From contig JAICNB010000012.1 in assembly GCA_025928935.1 (NCBI GenBank), positions 1 to 53,122 of the forward strand: 53,122 bases of DNA, read 5' to 3'. This document shows positions 15,712 through 33,520 of the stretch, one piece after another (position 1 is the stretch's first letter; the number at the start of each line of letters is the position of its first letter). The notes beneath the pieces are model-generated. The model ran no database searches. It had not been told where the DNA came from and saw nothing but the letters and a program-made list of their open reading frames with translations. Made by a program: the position numbers and the translations under genes. The DNA is from Acidimicrobiia bacterium. GTDB taxonomy: Bacteria; Actinomycetota; Acidimicrobiia; Spongiisociales; ZC4RG35.

Positions 15712-16410
15712 ATGCCTGAGACGAGCGCGCACACCATCGGCGGTGACGGGGACCTGACCTACCGGGCTCTGGCCGATCCCAAGCGTCGCCATCTCATCCG
15801 GCTGCTGGAGGATTCGGAGCGTCCCATGGAGGTGGGGGCTCTGGCCGCATCCGTGGGGCTCCATCCCAATACCGTGCGGAACCATCTCGATCTTCTCTCG
15901 AGGGCCGGTCTGGTGGAGAGAGAACCGGAGAAGCGAACCACTCCCGGTCGACCGAGGATTCTCTACTCGTCGTCTTCGCAGGACGGTCGGTCCCCTGGCG
16001 CAGAGGGTTACAAGTTCCTGTCCGAGGTGCTCGCCGGCTTCATCGAAACGACAGTGGAGGACGCGGCCGCCGCGGTCGAAGAGGCTGGCCGAGCCTGGGG
16101 TCGCTACCTAGTGGATCGACCTGCGCCAAACGTCCGGCTCGAATCGTCCCGGGTCGTCCAGCAAATGGTTTCGACCCTCGTCGATCTCGGGTTCGCCCCG
16201 GAGGAGACCGGCACCGCTGACCACGTCCTCATCAAGCTCCATGACTGCCCCTTCCGGGAGATCGTGCGACGGCACGGCGAGGTGGTGTGCTCGATTCATC
16301 TCGGAATCCTGCGCGGCGCGGCCGAGGAGCTGGGAGGTTCGGTGACCGTGGACACCCTCAGCCCCCTGGTGGAGCCGTCCCTCTGCCTCGTTGAACTGTC
16401 GGTGCCCTGA
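15712..16410 (+). CDS. ArsR/SufR-like winged-helix regulator with Cys-rich C-terminus
   Basis: 232-residue transcription factor. The winged helix-turn-helix spans about 20-95 (LADPKRRHLIRLLEDSE, VGLHPNTVRNHLDLLSRAGL, wing EKRTTPGRPRILY). The C-terminal part carries HDCPFREIVRRHGEVVC, i.e. two Cys separated by 13 residues, then SIHLGILRG and a third Cys near the end (SLCLVEL). This resembles the Cys arrangement of Fe-S-binding SufR-type regulators, so an O2-, NO- or redox-sensing cluster is a reasonable inference. It is divergent from the molybdoenzyme operon and probably controls it. A paralogue with the same Cys spacing lies at 32386-33036. Confidence 0.87.
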   Translation: MPETSAHTIGGDGDLTYRALADPKRRHLIRLLEDSERPMEVGALAASVGLHPNTVRNHLDLLSRAGLVEREPEKRTTPGRPRILYSSSSQDGRSPGAEGYKFLSEVLAGFIETTVEDAAAAVEEAGRAWGRYLVDRPAPNVRLESSRVVQQMVSTLVDLGFAPEETGTADHVLIKLHDCPFREIVRRHGEVVCSIHLGILRGAAEELGGSVTVDTLSPLVEPSLCLVELSVP

Positions 16411-28612: not shown

Positions 28613-29338
28613 TTGGAATCCACTCAGGTACTGATAGCTCTGTTGGTCGTCACGTGGGTAGCCGGAGGAGCGGCGATAGCCCTCGTCATGGCCCGTTCTG
28701 GCCACGACCTCGGGCTATGGCTGGCCCTGGGGGTCCTCCTCGGGCCGTTCACCGCATTCTTTGCGTTTGAACGTCACGTTCTCGATAGGGACCGCAGAGC
28801 CCCGAGGACAGCGGAGTTGCGGACCGGCCCCTTCGATGTCTTGGCCGGTATCGACGATTCCGAGGAGTCCATCGAGGCGGTGCGGGCGGCCTTGAGCCTG
28901 TTTGGCGACAGCGTTACCAGTCTGACCCTGGCCACCGCCCTGGATTACGAGGCCAGTGCCAGCTTCACGGGGATCGCACCCCAATCCCGCGCCTACTCGC
29001 GGTTGGCCGACGTGGCGTCCGGCCTCGAGTTCGATCCCATCGAGATTGTGCTGCTGTACGGCCCCCCAGGAGAGACGATCGGCAGGCTTGCACAAGAAAC
29101 AGGATTCGAGCTGATAGTCCTCGGCGCCCGCGGACAGGGAATGTCCGAGGCCCTCTTCGGAAGCGTCACAGAGGAGCTGATAGGCAGCGCTCCCGTCCCG
29201 GTCTTCGTCGGCCCCCGCGTTTCGGCGTCATCGGTCTCATCGACGAGAGGCTCGACGCGCTCCGGAACTCCCTCAGCCGGGGCGAGGGGTGATACGAACC
29301 CTGACCGGCATCTCGCCGGCGGTGGAGAGCGGTCATGA
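28613..29338 (+). CDS. Membrane-anchored universal stress protein (UspA domain)
   Basis: 241-residue protein starting at TTG 28613, the only start in frame, with GAAGGATGTGGG just upstream. Two N-terminal membrane helices (LIALLVVTWVAGGAAIALVM and LGLWLALGVLLGPFTAFFAF) precede a UspA domain (about 75-205). The ATP-binding motif is readable as GARGQGMSEALFGSVTEELI (G-2x-G-9x-G-S). Membrane tethering of UspA is uncommon. It overlaps the next gene by ATGA and is divergent from the metal ATPase. Confidence 0.82.
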   Translation: MESTQVLIALLVVTWVAGGAAIALVMARSGHDLGLWLALGVLLGPFTAFFAFERHVLDRDRRAPRTAELRTGPFDVLAGIDDSEESIEAVRAALSLFGDSVTSLTLATALDYEASASFTGIAPQSRAYSRLADVASGLEFDPIEIVLLYGPPGETIGRLAQETGFELIVLGARGQGMSEALFGSVTEELIGSAPVPVFVGPRVSASSVSSTRGSTRSGTPSAGARGDTNPDRHLAGGGERS

Positions 29339-29790
29339 GTTGGGTGAAATGGGGTCTCGCCGTCCTACTGGGCGGCTTTTTGGTGATCCAGGTCGTTCCT
29401 TATGGGAGGGATCACGACAATCCGCCGGTGGTAGCGGAGCCGTCTTGGGATTCGGCTCAGACCCGAGTGTTGGCGGCTCGCGCCTGTTTCGACTGTCACA
29501 GCAACGAGACGGTGTGGCCGTGGTATTCGAACGTGGCTCCTGTGTCCTGGCTCGTGCAGCGGGACGTCGACGAGGGCCGGGAGGAGCTCAACTATTCGGA
29601 GTGGAACCGACCCCAGGAGGGTGATGAGTCCGCCGAGACAGTGATGGAGGGCTCGATGCCGCCACGGTCCTACCTACTGACCCATGCCGATGCGCGGCTC
29701 ACCGACGCCGAACTGGCAGAGCTGGTGGATGGACTGGTAGCGACGCTAGGCGGTGAAGGGGACGATGAGGGAGAGGGCGAGGACGATTGA
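29335..29790 (+). CDS. Haem-binding domain protein (c-type, CxxCH)
   Basis: 151-residue membrane-anchored protein. One N-terminal helix (WGLAVLLGGFLVIQVVP) is followed by ARACFDCHSNETVWPWYSN, with the CxxCH haem c site (about residue 49-53), then VQRDVDEGREELNYSEWN and SMPPRSYLL, where Met is the likely sixth ligand. These are the features of the haem-binding domain family. The acidic C-terminus is a run of Glu/Asp/Gly. The ATG overlaps the universal-stress stop. Role in extracytoplasmic electron transfer is inferred. Confidence 0.88.
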   Translation: MSWVKWGLAVLLGGFLVIQVVPYGRDHDNPPVVAEPSWDSAQTRVLAARACFDCHSNETVWPWYSNVAPVSWLVQRDVDEGREELNYSEWNRPQEGDESAETVMEGSMPPRSYLLTHADARLTDAELAELVDGLVATLGGEGDDEGEGEDD

Positions 29791-29881
29791 CGGGGCCAGT
29801 CGCCGGCGGCGGCATCGTTCTTGAGGGTTTGCTGAAGTTGCGTTGACGTCTCCCTGACCAGTTTCCAAAGATGCTTGGTCC

Positions 29882-30730
29882 ATGCACCAACGCCTCGGAG
29901 CCATGAGATTCGCCCGGGTCCTCACTGTGGTCTCGGCAGGGTGCCTGCTGTTGGCCTGTAGCGCCGACCCGGCTGCCACGGCCGGGCCTTCCGAAGCCAC
30001 GATCGGCCCTGTCGTAACCTCCACCACGATGTCCAGTGGCGAGACCACCGCCGTCACCTCGGCGGAGAGCAGCACCGCCCCGGTCGAAACCGTGCAGCTC
30101 CCCGGCTCCGGCAGCCCAGGTGTCGAGATCGCTCTCGGGGAGTGGGCGTTGGTCCCGTCGGCCGTGGAGGCACCCCCGGGAATGATCACATTCCGATTTC
30201 GCAATCTCGGGACCGTCCCCCACGCCCTCCGCATCCGCACCGCCGGATCGGGTGACAACCGGCTCGAGTGGCGTGCCGAGGCCGTGAGTCCCGGGGAGAC
30301 CGCTCTCCTCGTCGCCGACCTGGCCCCTGGAACCTATGAGATCGACTGCCCGATCGAGGACGCGCACGGCGAACACGACCAGCTGGGGATGGAGATGATC
30401 TTCACCGTCCACGAGGGTGCCACCTCGCTGACTCCGCTGCCGGACTCTCCGGCCACGGAGGTACCAGCTTCAGACGAAGCCGCGTCGAGTACCGCGGTGA
30501 CGATCGCCGAGTTCGCATTCGCACCCGCCGAGCTAGGAATCTCCGTCGGTTCCACGGTGACCTGGAGCAACAGCGACCCGACCCCTCACACCGTCACCAG
30601 CGATGACTTCGACACCGGCCCCATCGACCAGGGAGCGAGCGGCACTGTGACGTTCCCTGCAGCCGGCTCGTTCGAGTACTTCTGCGCCATCCACCCGACA
30701 ATGCGAGGACGGGTTGTAGTCGAGCCGTAG
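29882..30730 (+). CDS. Lipoprotein with two cupredoxin domains
   Basis: 282-residue lipoprotein (lipobox SAGCLLLAC) with a Ser/Thr-rich linker and two plastocyanin-like domains. Domain 1 (about 78-180) has VPHALRI, then DCPIEDAHGEHDQLGMEM, giving His-Cys-His-Met candidates. Domain 2 (about 200-282) is canonical: PTPHTVTSDDF ... GSFEYFCAIHPTMRGRVVV with His, Cys, His and Met all visible. Two type-1 copper sites in one polypeptide suggest an electron relay at the cell surface. ATG 29882 is used; ATG 29903 also leaves the lipoprotein signal intact. Confidence 0.88.
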   Translation: MHQRLGAMRFARVLTVVSAGCLLLACSADPAATAGPSEATIGPVVTSTTMSSGETTAVTSAESSTAPVETVQLPGSGSPGVEIALGEWALVPSAVEAPPGMITFRFRNLGTVPHALRIRTAGSGDNRLEWRAEAVSPGETALLVADLAPGTYEIDCPIEDAHGEHDQLGMEMIFTVHEGATSLTPLPDSPATEVPASDEAASSTAVTIAEFAFAPAELGISVGSTVTWSNSDPTPHTVTSDDFDTGPIDQGASGTVTFPAAGSFEYFCAIHPTMRGRVVVEP

Positions 30731-30738
30731 CGCCGCCG

Positions 30739-31341
30739 CTAGTGGTCGTGGCTGTGGGTGGGAGCCGGGACCGAGACATCGAGGTGATCGGCGTGCTCGT
30801 GGGGCACGCTGAGGGCGGCGACGGTGAGGATGAGGGCGCCGACCAAAGCCACCAGCCTGATGATGCGGGTAGTGATCGGTGGGAGGGGGAGGGCCTGGTA
30901 GGACCGGCCGAGAGTGAGGGCGACGATGGTGACACCCACCACGGCGATCGAGAATGTGTTGGCCACCAGGTCGGCGACCCCAACCTCGGCTGCCTGATCG
31001 GCCCCGGGTATGAACGACAGTCCGACGGTGCGTGAGACGATCCACACCAGGCCGATGCCGGCATGGAGGACGCCGACCCAGAGGAGCACTGTGGGCGATG
31101 GGCGGACGAGGGTGAGACCGGCGACGGCCAACTGGGCGATAGCCATGGCCGCGAATCCGATGGCGATGAAGGTGAGGTCACGGTGATCGATGGAGGCCTC
31201 GAGATGGATCAGCCCACCGGCGGCTGCAAACGTGGCGATCACCCAGGCCAGGGCTCGATGCAGCGATGACCTGTTGTCGACTGCAACGACGGTCACGGTT
31301 GTCTCCGGAGTCTGGTTGAGGGTTTCGAGGATTGGTGCCAC
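30739..31341 (-). CDS. Polytopic membrane protein with His-rich tail
   Basis: 200-residue protein with about six membrane helices and the C-terminal tail PHEHADHLDVSVPAPTHSHDH, which holds seven His in about 20 residues and is probably metal-binding. A further HLEASIDHRDL loop contains two His. Convergent with the cupredoxin gene (8-bp gap). A role in copper or other metal handling is suggested only by the His cluster and the neighbour. No family recognised. Confidence 0.72.
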   Translation of the reverse strand: MAPILETLNQTPETTVTVVAVDNRSSLHRALAWVIATFAAAGGLIHLEASIDHRDLTFIAIGFAAMAIAQLAVAGLTLVRPSPTVLLWVGVLHAGIGLVWIVSRTVGLSFIPGADQAAEVGVADLVANTFSIAVVGVTIVALTLGRSYQALPLPPITTRIIRLVALVGALILTVAALSVPHEHADHLDVSVPAPTHSHDH

Positions 31342-31412: not shown

Positions 31413-32162
31413 TCATCCGCCGAACTGGTCGGGGAATTGGGCGATGATCCCGGCGGCGAGAGTGTCGGAGAGCATCAGCATGTGGTGTTTGGCCTCGTCG
31501 TAGTGCTCGATCGCGCTGGTGTAGTCACCATTGAGCAGATCAGTCGCGTAGACGATGGTCGTGTCGATGTGCCCCTCGAGCATCGGCCGAGTGGCTGACT
31601 GCGGCCAGTTCTCCGGGTTCGCTGCGGACACGAAATCGGCGATCTCCTCGGCATTGGCGTACCAGTCGGCAACGGCAGTCTCGAGCGCTGCGGTGTCCCC
31701 GGCTTGTGCGGCTGTGAGAACTGGGACGGCTTGATCGATGTGAGTAGTCAGGAGGTCGGTCAGTTGGTTTCCGGCTTCCTCACCGTAGAAGGACGCGATC
31801 GCGGCGCCGATATCGGCCTGGTTGGCGAGGAGCCGATCGAGCGTCGGCTGCAGCCCGTCCGGGTTGCGGAAGAAGGCGTCAACTGTCGCGTAAGTCCACT
31901 GCATGTGATCCGACCACAAGTCACGCATCGCGCTGTGCAGCCCGACCTGGGCTTCGAAGTCGGCCGGGTCCGTGGTCTGCAGCGCGGTGGCGGACGGGGT
32001 CGGTGGTTGTGTCGTATCGATGGCCGGCCGGGTGGTCACGGTGGTGGCTGCGGCTTGGGTCGTGGTGGGATCCGCGTCGTCGCTGGTCCCTCCGCTGCAG
32101 GCGCCCAGGGCGAGCACGCATGCGACCAGGACTCCGAGGAGCCGGTGGTGGTCGGTGGTCAT
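31413..32162 (-). CDS. Secreted helical lipoprotein
   Basis: 249-residue lipoprotein: VLVACVLALGAC lipobox, Thr-rich linker to about residue 60, then an all-helical domain with ATVDAFFRNPDGLQPTLDRL, NQADIGAAIASFYGEEAGN, VADWYANAEEIADFVSAANP and AKHHMLMLSDTLAAGI. The same blocks occur in an uncharacterised family in Bacillus and actinobacteria, sometimes mislabelled. ATG 32162 is preceded by AGAAAGGA, so the longer upstream frame was rejected. Its promoter carries the TTCTAAA-type sites next to the Cys-rich regulator. Confidence 0.85.
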   Translation of the reverse strand: MTTDHHRLLGVLVACVLALGACSGGTSDDADPTTTQAAATTVTTRPAIDTTQPPTPSATALQTTDPADFEAQVGLHSAMRDLWSDHMQWTYATVDAFFRNPDGLQPTLDRLLANQADIGAAIASFYGEEAGNQLTDLLTTHIDQAVPVLTAAQAGDTAALETAVADWYANAEEIADFVSAANPENWPQSATRPMLEGHIDTTIVYATDLLNGDYTSAIEHYDEAKHHMLMLSDTLAAGIIAQFPDQFGG

Positions 32163-32204: not shown

Positions 32205-32232
32205 TCTAAAATTGAGATGATTGAGATTTAGA
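32205..32232. promoter_or_regulatory. Inverted TCTAAA ... TTTAGA operator candidate
   Basis: TCTAAA (32205-32210) and TTTAGA (32227-32232) form an inverted repeat with a 16-bp spacer inside an AT-rich promoter in a GC-rich genome. It lies just before the helical lipoprotein gene. A third half-site TTTAGAA lies at 32266-32272, and a TAAAC-N7-GTTTA dyad lies between them. Confidence 0.55.
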
Positions 32233-32385
32233 ATGCCTGACTCTCTTAAACATGTCAAGTTTATTTTTAGAAGAAGCCTCGCAGGGACCCGTCAGAGAGG
32301 ACACGTGGCCCAGACGACTAACCGAACGTCGTCGACGTGCGCCCGACCGCGGCGCGGACTGGCTCAGTCCGCCACCTCTCCTCTT

Positions 32386-33036
32386 CTATTCGCTCACCGG
32401 GGGGCTGAGCCGGACACAGCAGTAACCTTCCTCGAAGGCGAGGACCGCATCTGTCTTGGAGCCCGAGCCCTCCACCATGCCCTCCACCAGCGCCAGGTTG
32501 AGCCCACAGGTGGTGTCCCGATCCCTTTCCCGCAGCTCGTGGAAGGGGCAGTTTCGGAACCGGGTCTCTCCTTCCTCGATCACCGGCTCGTACCCGGTGG
32601 CTACGAGGGCAGCTCCGAGGCCTGCCTGGCCCATTTCCCTACCGGTCCGTCGGGCCGAGTCGATCAAGGCCCCGGTGTCGAGATGGCCCGCCTGTGTCGC
32701 GTCGAGGAGGATGCGAGCAGCCAACTCGTAGCGCCGTGGTGGGATGGACACCTCGTGGACCCGGTCCGAACGGCGGTAGAGCTTGGACGGCCGCCCTGCC
32801 CCAGGACCGGTCCTTCCGCTCAACCGGCGATACTCCACCTCCAACAGACCGTCCTCGGACAGCCGGTTGAGGTGATAGGCAGCCACCTGCGGAGAAACAT
32901 CGACAGCGTCGGCGGCCGCGTCGCGACTCACCGGCTCTGCCGAGGCGGCCACGAAAGCATAGAGGGCGCGGCGGATCGGCTCGCCGAGAGACGCCACAGC
33001 CTCCAGGGAGTCGGATCCGAAGTCGTTGTCAGTCAT
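32386..33036 (-). CDS. ArsR-type winged-helix regulator with Cys motif (paralogue of 15712-16410)
   Basis: 216-residue transcription factor. Winged helix (about 10-85): LGEPIRRALYAFVAASAEP, VDVSPQVAAYHLNRLSEDGLL and a wing ending RPSKLYR. The C-terminal half has RFRNCPFHELRERDRDTTC, again two Cys 13 residues apart, then GLNLALVEGM and a Cys pair near the end (EEGYCCVRL). This is the same architecture as the regulator at 15.7 kb. Its own promoter and the one downstream both carry TTCTAAA sites, pointing to autoregulation and control of the neighbours. Confidence 0.87.
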   Translation of the reverse strand: MTDNDFGSDSLEAVASLGEPIRRALYAFVAASAEPVSRDAAADAVDVSPQVAAYHLNRLSEDGLLEVEYRRLSGRTGPGAGRPSKLYRRSDRVHEVSIPPRRYELAARILLDATQAGHLDTGALIDSARRTGREMGQAGLGAALVATGYEPVIEEGETRFRNCPFHELRERDRDTTCGLNLALVEGMVEGSGSKTDAVLAFEEGYCCVRLSPPVSE

Positions 33037-33045
33037 GATCCACCA

Positions 33046-33113
33046 TTCTAAAACCCATTGGACTTGACTTTACACAGCCTTCCCTCTAAGTTCGATAGCG
33101 GTCGACTTTAGAA
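33046..33113. promoter_or_regulatory. Divergent promoter with paired TTCTAAA / TTTAGAA sites
   Basis: TTCTAAA (33046-33052) and TTTAGAA (33107-33113) are exact inverted copies flanking the regulator/DoxX intergenic region. A possible -35 TTGACT (about 33064) with a weak -10 TAAGTT 17 bp downstream lies between them. The right-hand site overlaps the AGAAGGAGG ribosome site of the DoxX-like gene, so bound regulator could block both transcription and access to the start. Confidence 0.55.
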
Positions 33114-33124
33114 GGAGGAACTTC

Positions 33125-33520
33125 ATGACCACCACCACTACTCCCACCGTTGCCCCCCAGACCACCCGCAGTCTCACCGCCTACCGGATCCTCCGGGTGG
33201 GATTCACCGTGGCTCCCATCCTGTTCGGGTTGGACAAGTTCACCAATCTGATGACCGACTGGACCCAGTTCCTTCCCGAGTTCGTCACCAACGTCATCAG
33301 CGGTGGCGCTGTCATGGCCGTGGTCGGGGTCGTGGAGATCATCGCCGGGATCGGCGTCTGGCTACGGCCCAAGATCTTCGCCTACGTGGTCGCTGCCTGG
33401 CTGGGAGTGATCATCATCACCCTGATCATCGTCGGCGGGTTCTGGGACATCGCCCTGCGTGACTTCGGGCTGCTGCTCGGGGCCCTCGCCCTGGGTCAGC
33501 TCGCCCAAGATCACGCCTGA
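33125..33520 (+). CDS. DoxX-like small membrane protein
   Basis: 131-residue protein with four membrane helices and the DoxX-like N-terminal block YRILRVGFTVAPILFGLDKFTN followed by WTQFLPEF and MAVVGVVEIIAGIGVWL. This family is often annotated only as DoxX or as membrane protein; redox or oxidative-stress functions have been proposed for relatives. A strong AGAAGGAGG lies 6 bp upstream of ATG. It is probably controlled by the divergent Cys-rich regulator. Confidence 0.85.
   Translation: MTTTTTPTVAPQTTRSLTAYRILRVGFTVAPILFGLDKFTNLMTDWTQFLPEFVTNVISGGAVMAVVGVVEIIAGIGVWLRPKIFAYVVAAWLGVIIITLIIVGGFWDIALRDFGLLLGALALGQLAQDHA

Follow-up and report, generated by a model that had tools for sequence, protein, structure and literature searches.

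The question raised by this locus was whether a short AT-rich motif recurring on both sides of a gene for a cysteine-rich, 216-residue winged-helix regulator marks the operator of that regulator. In the stretch of DNA analyzed (53,122 nucleotides, here called the window), the five copies reported by a sequence-only reading were all located: TCTAAA at 32205-32210, a 6-mer only because the preceding base is C; TTTAGAA at 32227-32233 and 32266-32272; TTCTAAA at 33046-33052; and TTTAGAA at 33107-33113. The last copy, claimed to overlap the ribosome site of a DoxX-like gene, runs into the AAGGAGG ahead of its ATG. The motif had also been supposed rare, and the heptamer TTCTAAA occurred only four times in the 53-kb window against 0.33 expected, with every copy at the regulator locus; four copies were reached in 0 of 100 shuffles.

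The positions of the short motifs in the two flanking promoters therefore held, but the 6- to 7-bp unit did not. The five copies were halves of four 28-bp imperfect dyads, with the window form TCTAAR-N16-TTTAGA and the imperfect partner halves TCTTAA (32244-32249), TTTACA (33069-33074), and TCTAAG (33085-33090). The dyads were first spotted by aligning the motifs by eye and were afterwards confirmed computationally. They are arranged two per promoter, 38 to 39 bp apart, and are given here without strand. Dyads A and B precede a putative lipoprotein gene encoded on the minus strand. Operator A (32205-32232, TCTAAA-N16-TTTAGA) is the downstream dyad of that promoter and operator B (32244-32271, TCTTAA-N16-TTTAGA) the upstream dyad, with a minus-strand TTGACA at 32253-32258 inside it. 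Dyads C and D are found in the region separating the regulator from the divergent DoxX-like gene. Operator C (33047-33074, TCTAAA-N16-TTTACA) adjoins the regulator start, while operator D (33085-33112, TCTAAG-N16-TTTAGA) touches the ribosome-binding site of the DoxX-like gene. The 7-mer alone was dropped as the operator in favor of the 28-bp dyad, because the conserved parts were the partner halves and an N18 spacer, giving the generalized core TCTAA-N18-TTAGA.

When the source genome (3,076,764 bases in 144 contigs) was searched with the window-form dyad at ≤1 mismatch, the genome-wide count returned the four locus sites only, and the reversed-pattern control gave 0 forward and 2 reverse matches. 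A regulator orthologue, 86 to 87% identical, was present in a contig of another Acidimicrobiia bacterium. The orthologous locus of genome G001 carried a dyad at each of the four corresponding positions, with site A at one mismatch and site B, imperfect in the window, as a full TCTAAA-N16-TTTAGA dyad.

Conservation was then scanned with the core at ≤1 mismatch within 400 bp upstream of regulator homologues. Of 28 close homologues in the class, 20 had the core upstream, in 10 cases as an exact match. With the own genus excluded (five promoters of G000, G001, and G002), 15/23 retained it, although some of the 23 are close relatives (L134/L138 and L135/L140) and hence not all independent. Shuffling the promoters of the 28 homologues gave a mean of 0.06 with the core and never more than one, spacers of 4 to 31 other than 18 gave at most 3 among the 28, and 29 other permutations of the half-sites gave a mean of 0.24. 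In a phylum-wide sample, where the scan covered matches given a locus and three of 30 loci (L189, L204, and L209) were dropped as duplicates, the core lay upstream of 9 of 27 further homologues and other spacers reached at most 2. The notion that the motifs clustered by chance in AT-rich promoter DNA draws on the intergenic DNA at the locus being more AT-rich than the genome, but it is refuted by the uniqueness of the sites genome-wide, the promoter shuffles, the fixed spacer, and the conservation across the phylum, and its probability is negligible.

Distant homologues lacked the core both upstream (0/33, 14,053 bp) and in their whole loci (0); L009 gave no match in this set. Four further distant homologues set apart from the 28 (L144, L151, L152, and L162) likewise gave 0/4, and the partial regulator L142 was left out of the upstream scan. 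At ≤1 mismatch the core was absent from 8 of the 28 close homologues and 18 of the 27 in the phylum sample. Two of the eight core-less close promoters, both from L126, carry TCTAA-N16-TTAGA as judged from half-site positions, and L124, L130, and L137 hold candidates at two mismatches. At the L126 locus itself (L126:1355-2983, genome G241), two regulator copies diverge, and the half-site positions in the intervening DNA agree with TCTAA-N16-TTAGA, which is two bases below the usual length. Across the phylum, regulator relatives with an E value of 1e-20 or better, more distant ones included, were present in 53 of 396 sampled Actinomycetota genomes.

A different regulator, conserved with the locus by chance, could instead bind the dyads. 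The source genome has 20 matches to HTH_20, 17 of them over the cut-off, and one is of particular relevance: a paralogue 57% identical to the window regulator (L040, G000:C122:17321-17947) is closely preceded by a one-mismatch core, which makes cross-regulation possible. Against a different regulator, the dyad tracks close homologues of the window regulator across the phylum and not distant ones, and this alternative is judged highly improbable; cross-binding by the close paralogue is possible and would leave the overall picture unchanged. The motifs are near certain, on comparative grounds, to be operators of the adjacent regulator, because paired sites of the same kind recur ahead of the same small group of genes in many other actinobacteria. 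The proposal of the sequence-only reading that they denote the operator of the regulator whose gene lies between them is supported: the dyad, with its fixed spacer, accompanies the orthologues beyond the genus, the family, and the class, it is missing upstream of the distant homologues, and its window form is unique in its own genome.

A search by pattern only gave matches in 23 of 395 genomes from the class, and many of these look like chance matches in AT-rich genomes; in G241, from a different family, the match was flanked on one side by a homologue of the regulator and on the other by a tandem homologue of the lipoprotein. The exact core occurred at 19 places in 26 chosen genomes, 15 of them at promoters of the regulator or of DoxX-like, lipoprotein, or FAD-reductase genes, and the other four in G066 (two), G271, and G166; the reversed-pattern control gave 10 places in the same 26 genomes. 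In nine further genomes or records, all six exact cores (6/6) were at the regulator/DoxX-like locus, with two places for the reversed control. Given these proportions at target promoters, the regulated set looks small and local.

The placement of the dyads on the promoters suggested how they might act. At the DoxX-like gene, a predicted -35 (33064-33069, plus strand, TTGACT, 5/6 match) lies within operator C, 17 bp before a predicted -10 (33087-33092, plus strand, TAAGTT) inside operator D, which also covers the predicted start. A similar layout was seen in 13 of 18 target promoters, defined as those of DoxX-like, lipoprotein, or FAD-reductase genes, with a -35 matching at least 5/6 of TTGACA at 16 to 18 bp, mostly 17, before the TAA of the left half of the dyad. 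Fourteen of the 18 had a further exact TCTAA 37 to 39 bp upstream of the dyad, and none of the other offsets between 12 and 109 showed one; the 38-bp tandem recurred in the phylum-sample loci L185, L192, L201, L211, and L214. In the lipoprotein promoter of the window, both dyads and a TTGACA are present, but the -10 spacing departs from the canonical one.

This layout could also prompt the idea that the repeats are shared promoter elements, either -10 boxes or alternative sigma factor sites, and not a repressor site, since the left half contains a TAAnnT-like -10 that in 13/18 target promoters is mostly 17 bp from a TTGAC -35. Such elements would not account for the TTAGA of the right half, for a spacer fixed at 18 bp, or for another half-site 37 to 39 bp upstream. 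Moreover, the same dyads occur at the regulator promoters in the opposite direction, where no -35 was seen at the 16- to 18-bp spacing, and the promoter-element explanation is accordingly considered very unlikely. With C over the -35 and D over the -10 and start of the DoxX-like gene, the arrangement reads as repression by occlusion of the promoter, which is very likely from the predicted elements.

The recurring set of targets extends beyond the two flanking genes: the dyad recurred at the regulator itself and at genes for the DoxX-like protein, the helical lipoprotein, and a FAD/NAD reductase. The DoxX-like membrane protein (33125-33520, plus strand) is the commonest partner, with homologues beside the regulator in many loci. 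Its label is putative and reflects resemblance only, as the window protein did not match DoxX (PF07681) at the gathering score and L134, one of three homologues scanned, gave an E value of 0.33. The putative lipoprotein (31413-32162, minus strand), downstream of operators A and B, had no Pfam or PDB sequence match. Its homologues were found near the regulator in G241, G137, G151, and pNOCA01; those located away from a close regulator (L145, L146, and L147) had no dyad even at two mismatches. A low-confidence model of the lipoprotein was all-helical, and H86, H141, and H198 were invariant in 8 members; a metal or haem site is no more than a guess. Fold models of the regulator and the lipoprotein built from two-sequence alignments were of low confidence, gave no significant fold matches, and were set aside. 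Downstream of the lipoprotein, a putative membrane protein (30739-31341, minus strand) without a Pfam match probably belongs to the same operon, and the gene order is conserved in G001. Adjoining this operon at 29335-30730 (plus strand) are genes for a cupredoxin protein, likewise in place in G001, and for a protein with a haem-binding domain (PF14376).

Among the annotated subset of neighbors, for which gene calls from a simple ORF picker are approximate, the recurring genes encoded the DoxX-like protein, GTP cyclohydrolase I FolE (Pfam match 8.4e-66 for the L134 copy), a FAD/NAD ferredoxin-reductase-like protein that carries a Rieske domain in G009, DUF2231, transaldolase, and the lipoprotein. 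FolE and DUF2231 were mostly neighbors downstream of a dyad-bearing promoter. On plasmid pNOCA01 of Nocardioides sp. JS614, the regulator, the DoxX-like gene, folE, a FAD oxidoreductase, and a lipoprotein homologue fall within ∼6 kb, with an exact core between the regulator and the DoxX-like gene. Similarly, pRop44186_a of Rhodococcus opacus carries the regulator, the DoxX-like gene, folE, transaldolase, and a FAD oxidoreductase, with a one-mismatch core. A FAD/NAD reductase gene is also immediately preceded by an exact dyad at G016:C14:31088-31115 (L148); that genome yielded no close homologue of the regulator. At L135:3450-3966, a gene matching group III truncated haemoglobin (E value, 1e-7) has a weak site (one mismatch) directly upstream; tblastn over the collected loci matched that gene only in the same genome, and its status as a target therefore stays a lead.

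The regulator (32386-33036, minus strand) matched PF12840 (HTH_20, 5.5e-11) and has the C-terminal cysteines C163, C177, C206, and C207. All four were present in 21/21 aligned homologues, a count that takes 21 of 27 cluster members, excludes short ones and the divergent L048, and lacks some regulators missed by ORF calling (e.g., L131 and L132). C163, C177, and C207 of the window regulator are separated by 14 and 30 residues; in other homologues the separations were 14 and 30, 31, or 33. Elsewhere in the window, the first cysteine-rich regulator (15712-16410, plus strand) also has an HTH_20 domain, with a weak, subthreshold C-terminal match to V4R (E value, 0.03), and no TTCTAAA site occurred nearby.

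The cysteine pattern invites comparison with two characterized repressors. ArnR of Corynebacterium glutamicum is described in PMC12343034 as a [4Fe-4S] repressor of narKGHJI and hmp with cysteines C179, C193, and C223, whose DNA binding is abolished by NO. As there described, this actinobacterial repressor likewise has an N-terminal winged helix and a C-terminal three-cysteine site with separations of 14 and 30. By cysteine spacing and description, which are the basis of the comparison, window-type regulators differ in their conserved fourth cysteine, C206. The targets differ as well, being narKGHJI and hmp for ArnR (same text) versus DoxX-like, lipoprotein, FAD-reductase, and FolE genes here; neither narKGHJI, nitrate reductase, nor hmp was seen among the dyad-bearing promoters. 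SufR of Mycobacterium tuberculosis (Rv1460), according to PMC6034842, is an Fe-S repressor that autoregulates its own operon and has three essential C-terminal cysteines; these are separated by 13 and 28 residues, in contrast to 14 and 30 in the window regulator, and SufR regulates suf genes. No suf genes were recognized in the regulator neighborhoods. As the cysteine separations match those of ArnR, Fe-S binding is likely but inferred, and by this analogy the regulator is likely an Fe-S switch.

For NO as the preferred signal the chances appear about evenly balanced, again by analogy. The operator may be right and the signal something other than NO, such as light or photo-oxidative stress, oxygen, iron-sulfur status, or metals, and the probability of this falls just short of an even chance. 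One possible parallel is LitR, which is of a different regulator family, being MerR type and B12-related. In Pseudomonas, folE and a FAD-dependent oxidoreductase are co-regulated and light induced under class II LitR, and SufR-type proteins respond to Fe-S status (PMC9758184 and PMC6034842, respectively). However, the cysteine separations equal those of NO-sensing ArnR, and whereas the LitR regulon has photolyase and LOV genes, none were recognized here; no photolyase or photoreceptor gene was recognized beside the regulators among annotated neighbors.

In the preferred account, one regulator dimer would bind each dyad, and the pair of dyads would block RNA polymerase, so that the regulator would repress the DoxX-like gene, the lipoprotein operon, and itself. 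By analogy with ArnR and SufR, its C-terminal cysteines may hold an Fe-S cluster, and attack on the cluster by NO or a related oxidant would release the DNA. Release would switch on a small redox stress set comprising membrane, pterin, and flavin functions, the signal being NO or another redox stress as inferred from those relatives. This account is held with high confidence overall, most firmly for the operators and less so for the Fe-S switch and the signal.

No description of this operator or regulon, or of DoxX with folE under such a regulator, was found among the titles and abstracts of the open-licence papers that the searches listed. A broader reading, tentative and given somewhat less than an even chance, is an undescribed phylum-wide actinobacterial regulon in which an ArnR-like Fe-S repressor would silence, through tandem 28-bp operators 38 bp apart, a compact NO/redox defence module of DoxX-like membrane protein, GTP cyclohydrolase FolE, FAD/NAD reductase, and helical lipoprotein. 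If true, it would link pterin synthesis to nitrosative stress. Since carriers of the system include Nocardioides sp. JS614 and Rhodococcus opacus, it is directly testable. On the present analysis, a previously unannotated regulator gains a defined operator, a promoter logic, and a candidate regulon, and the poorly understood DoxX-like, lipoprotein, and FAD reductase genes, together with folE, are tied to one switch.
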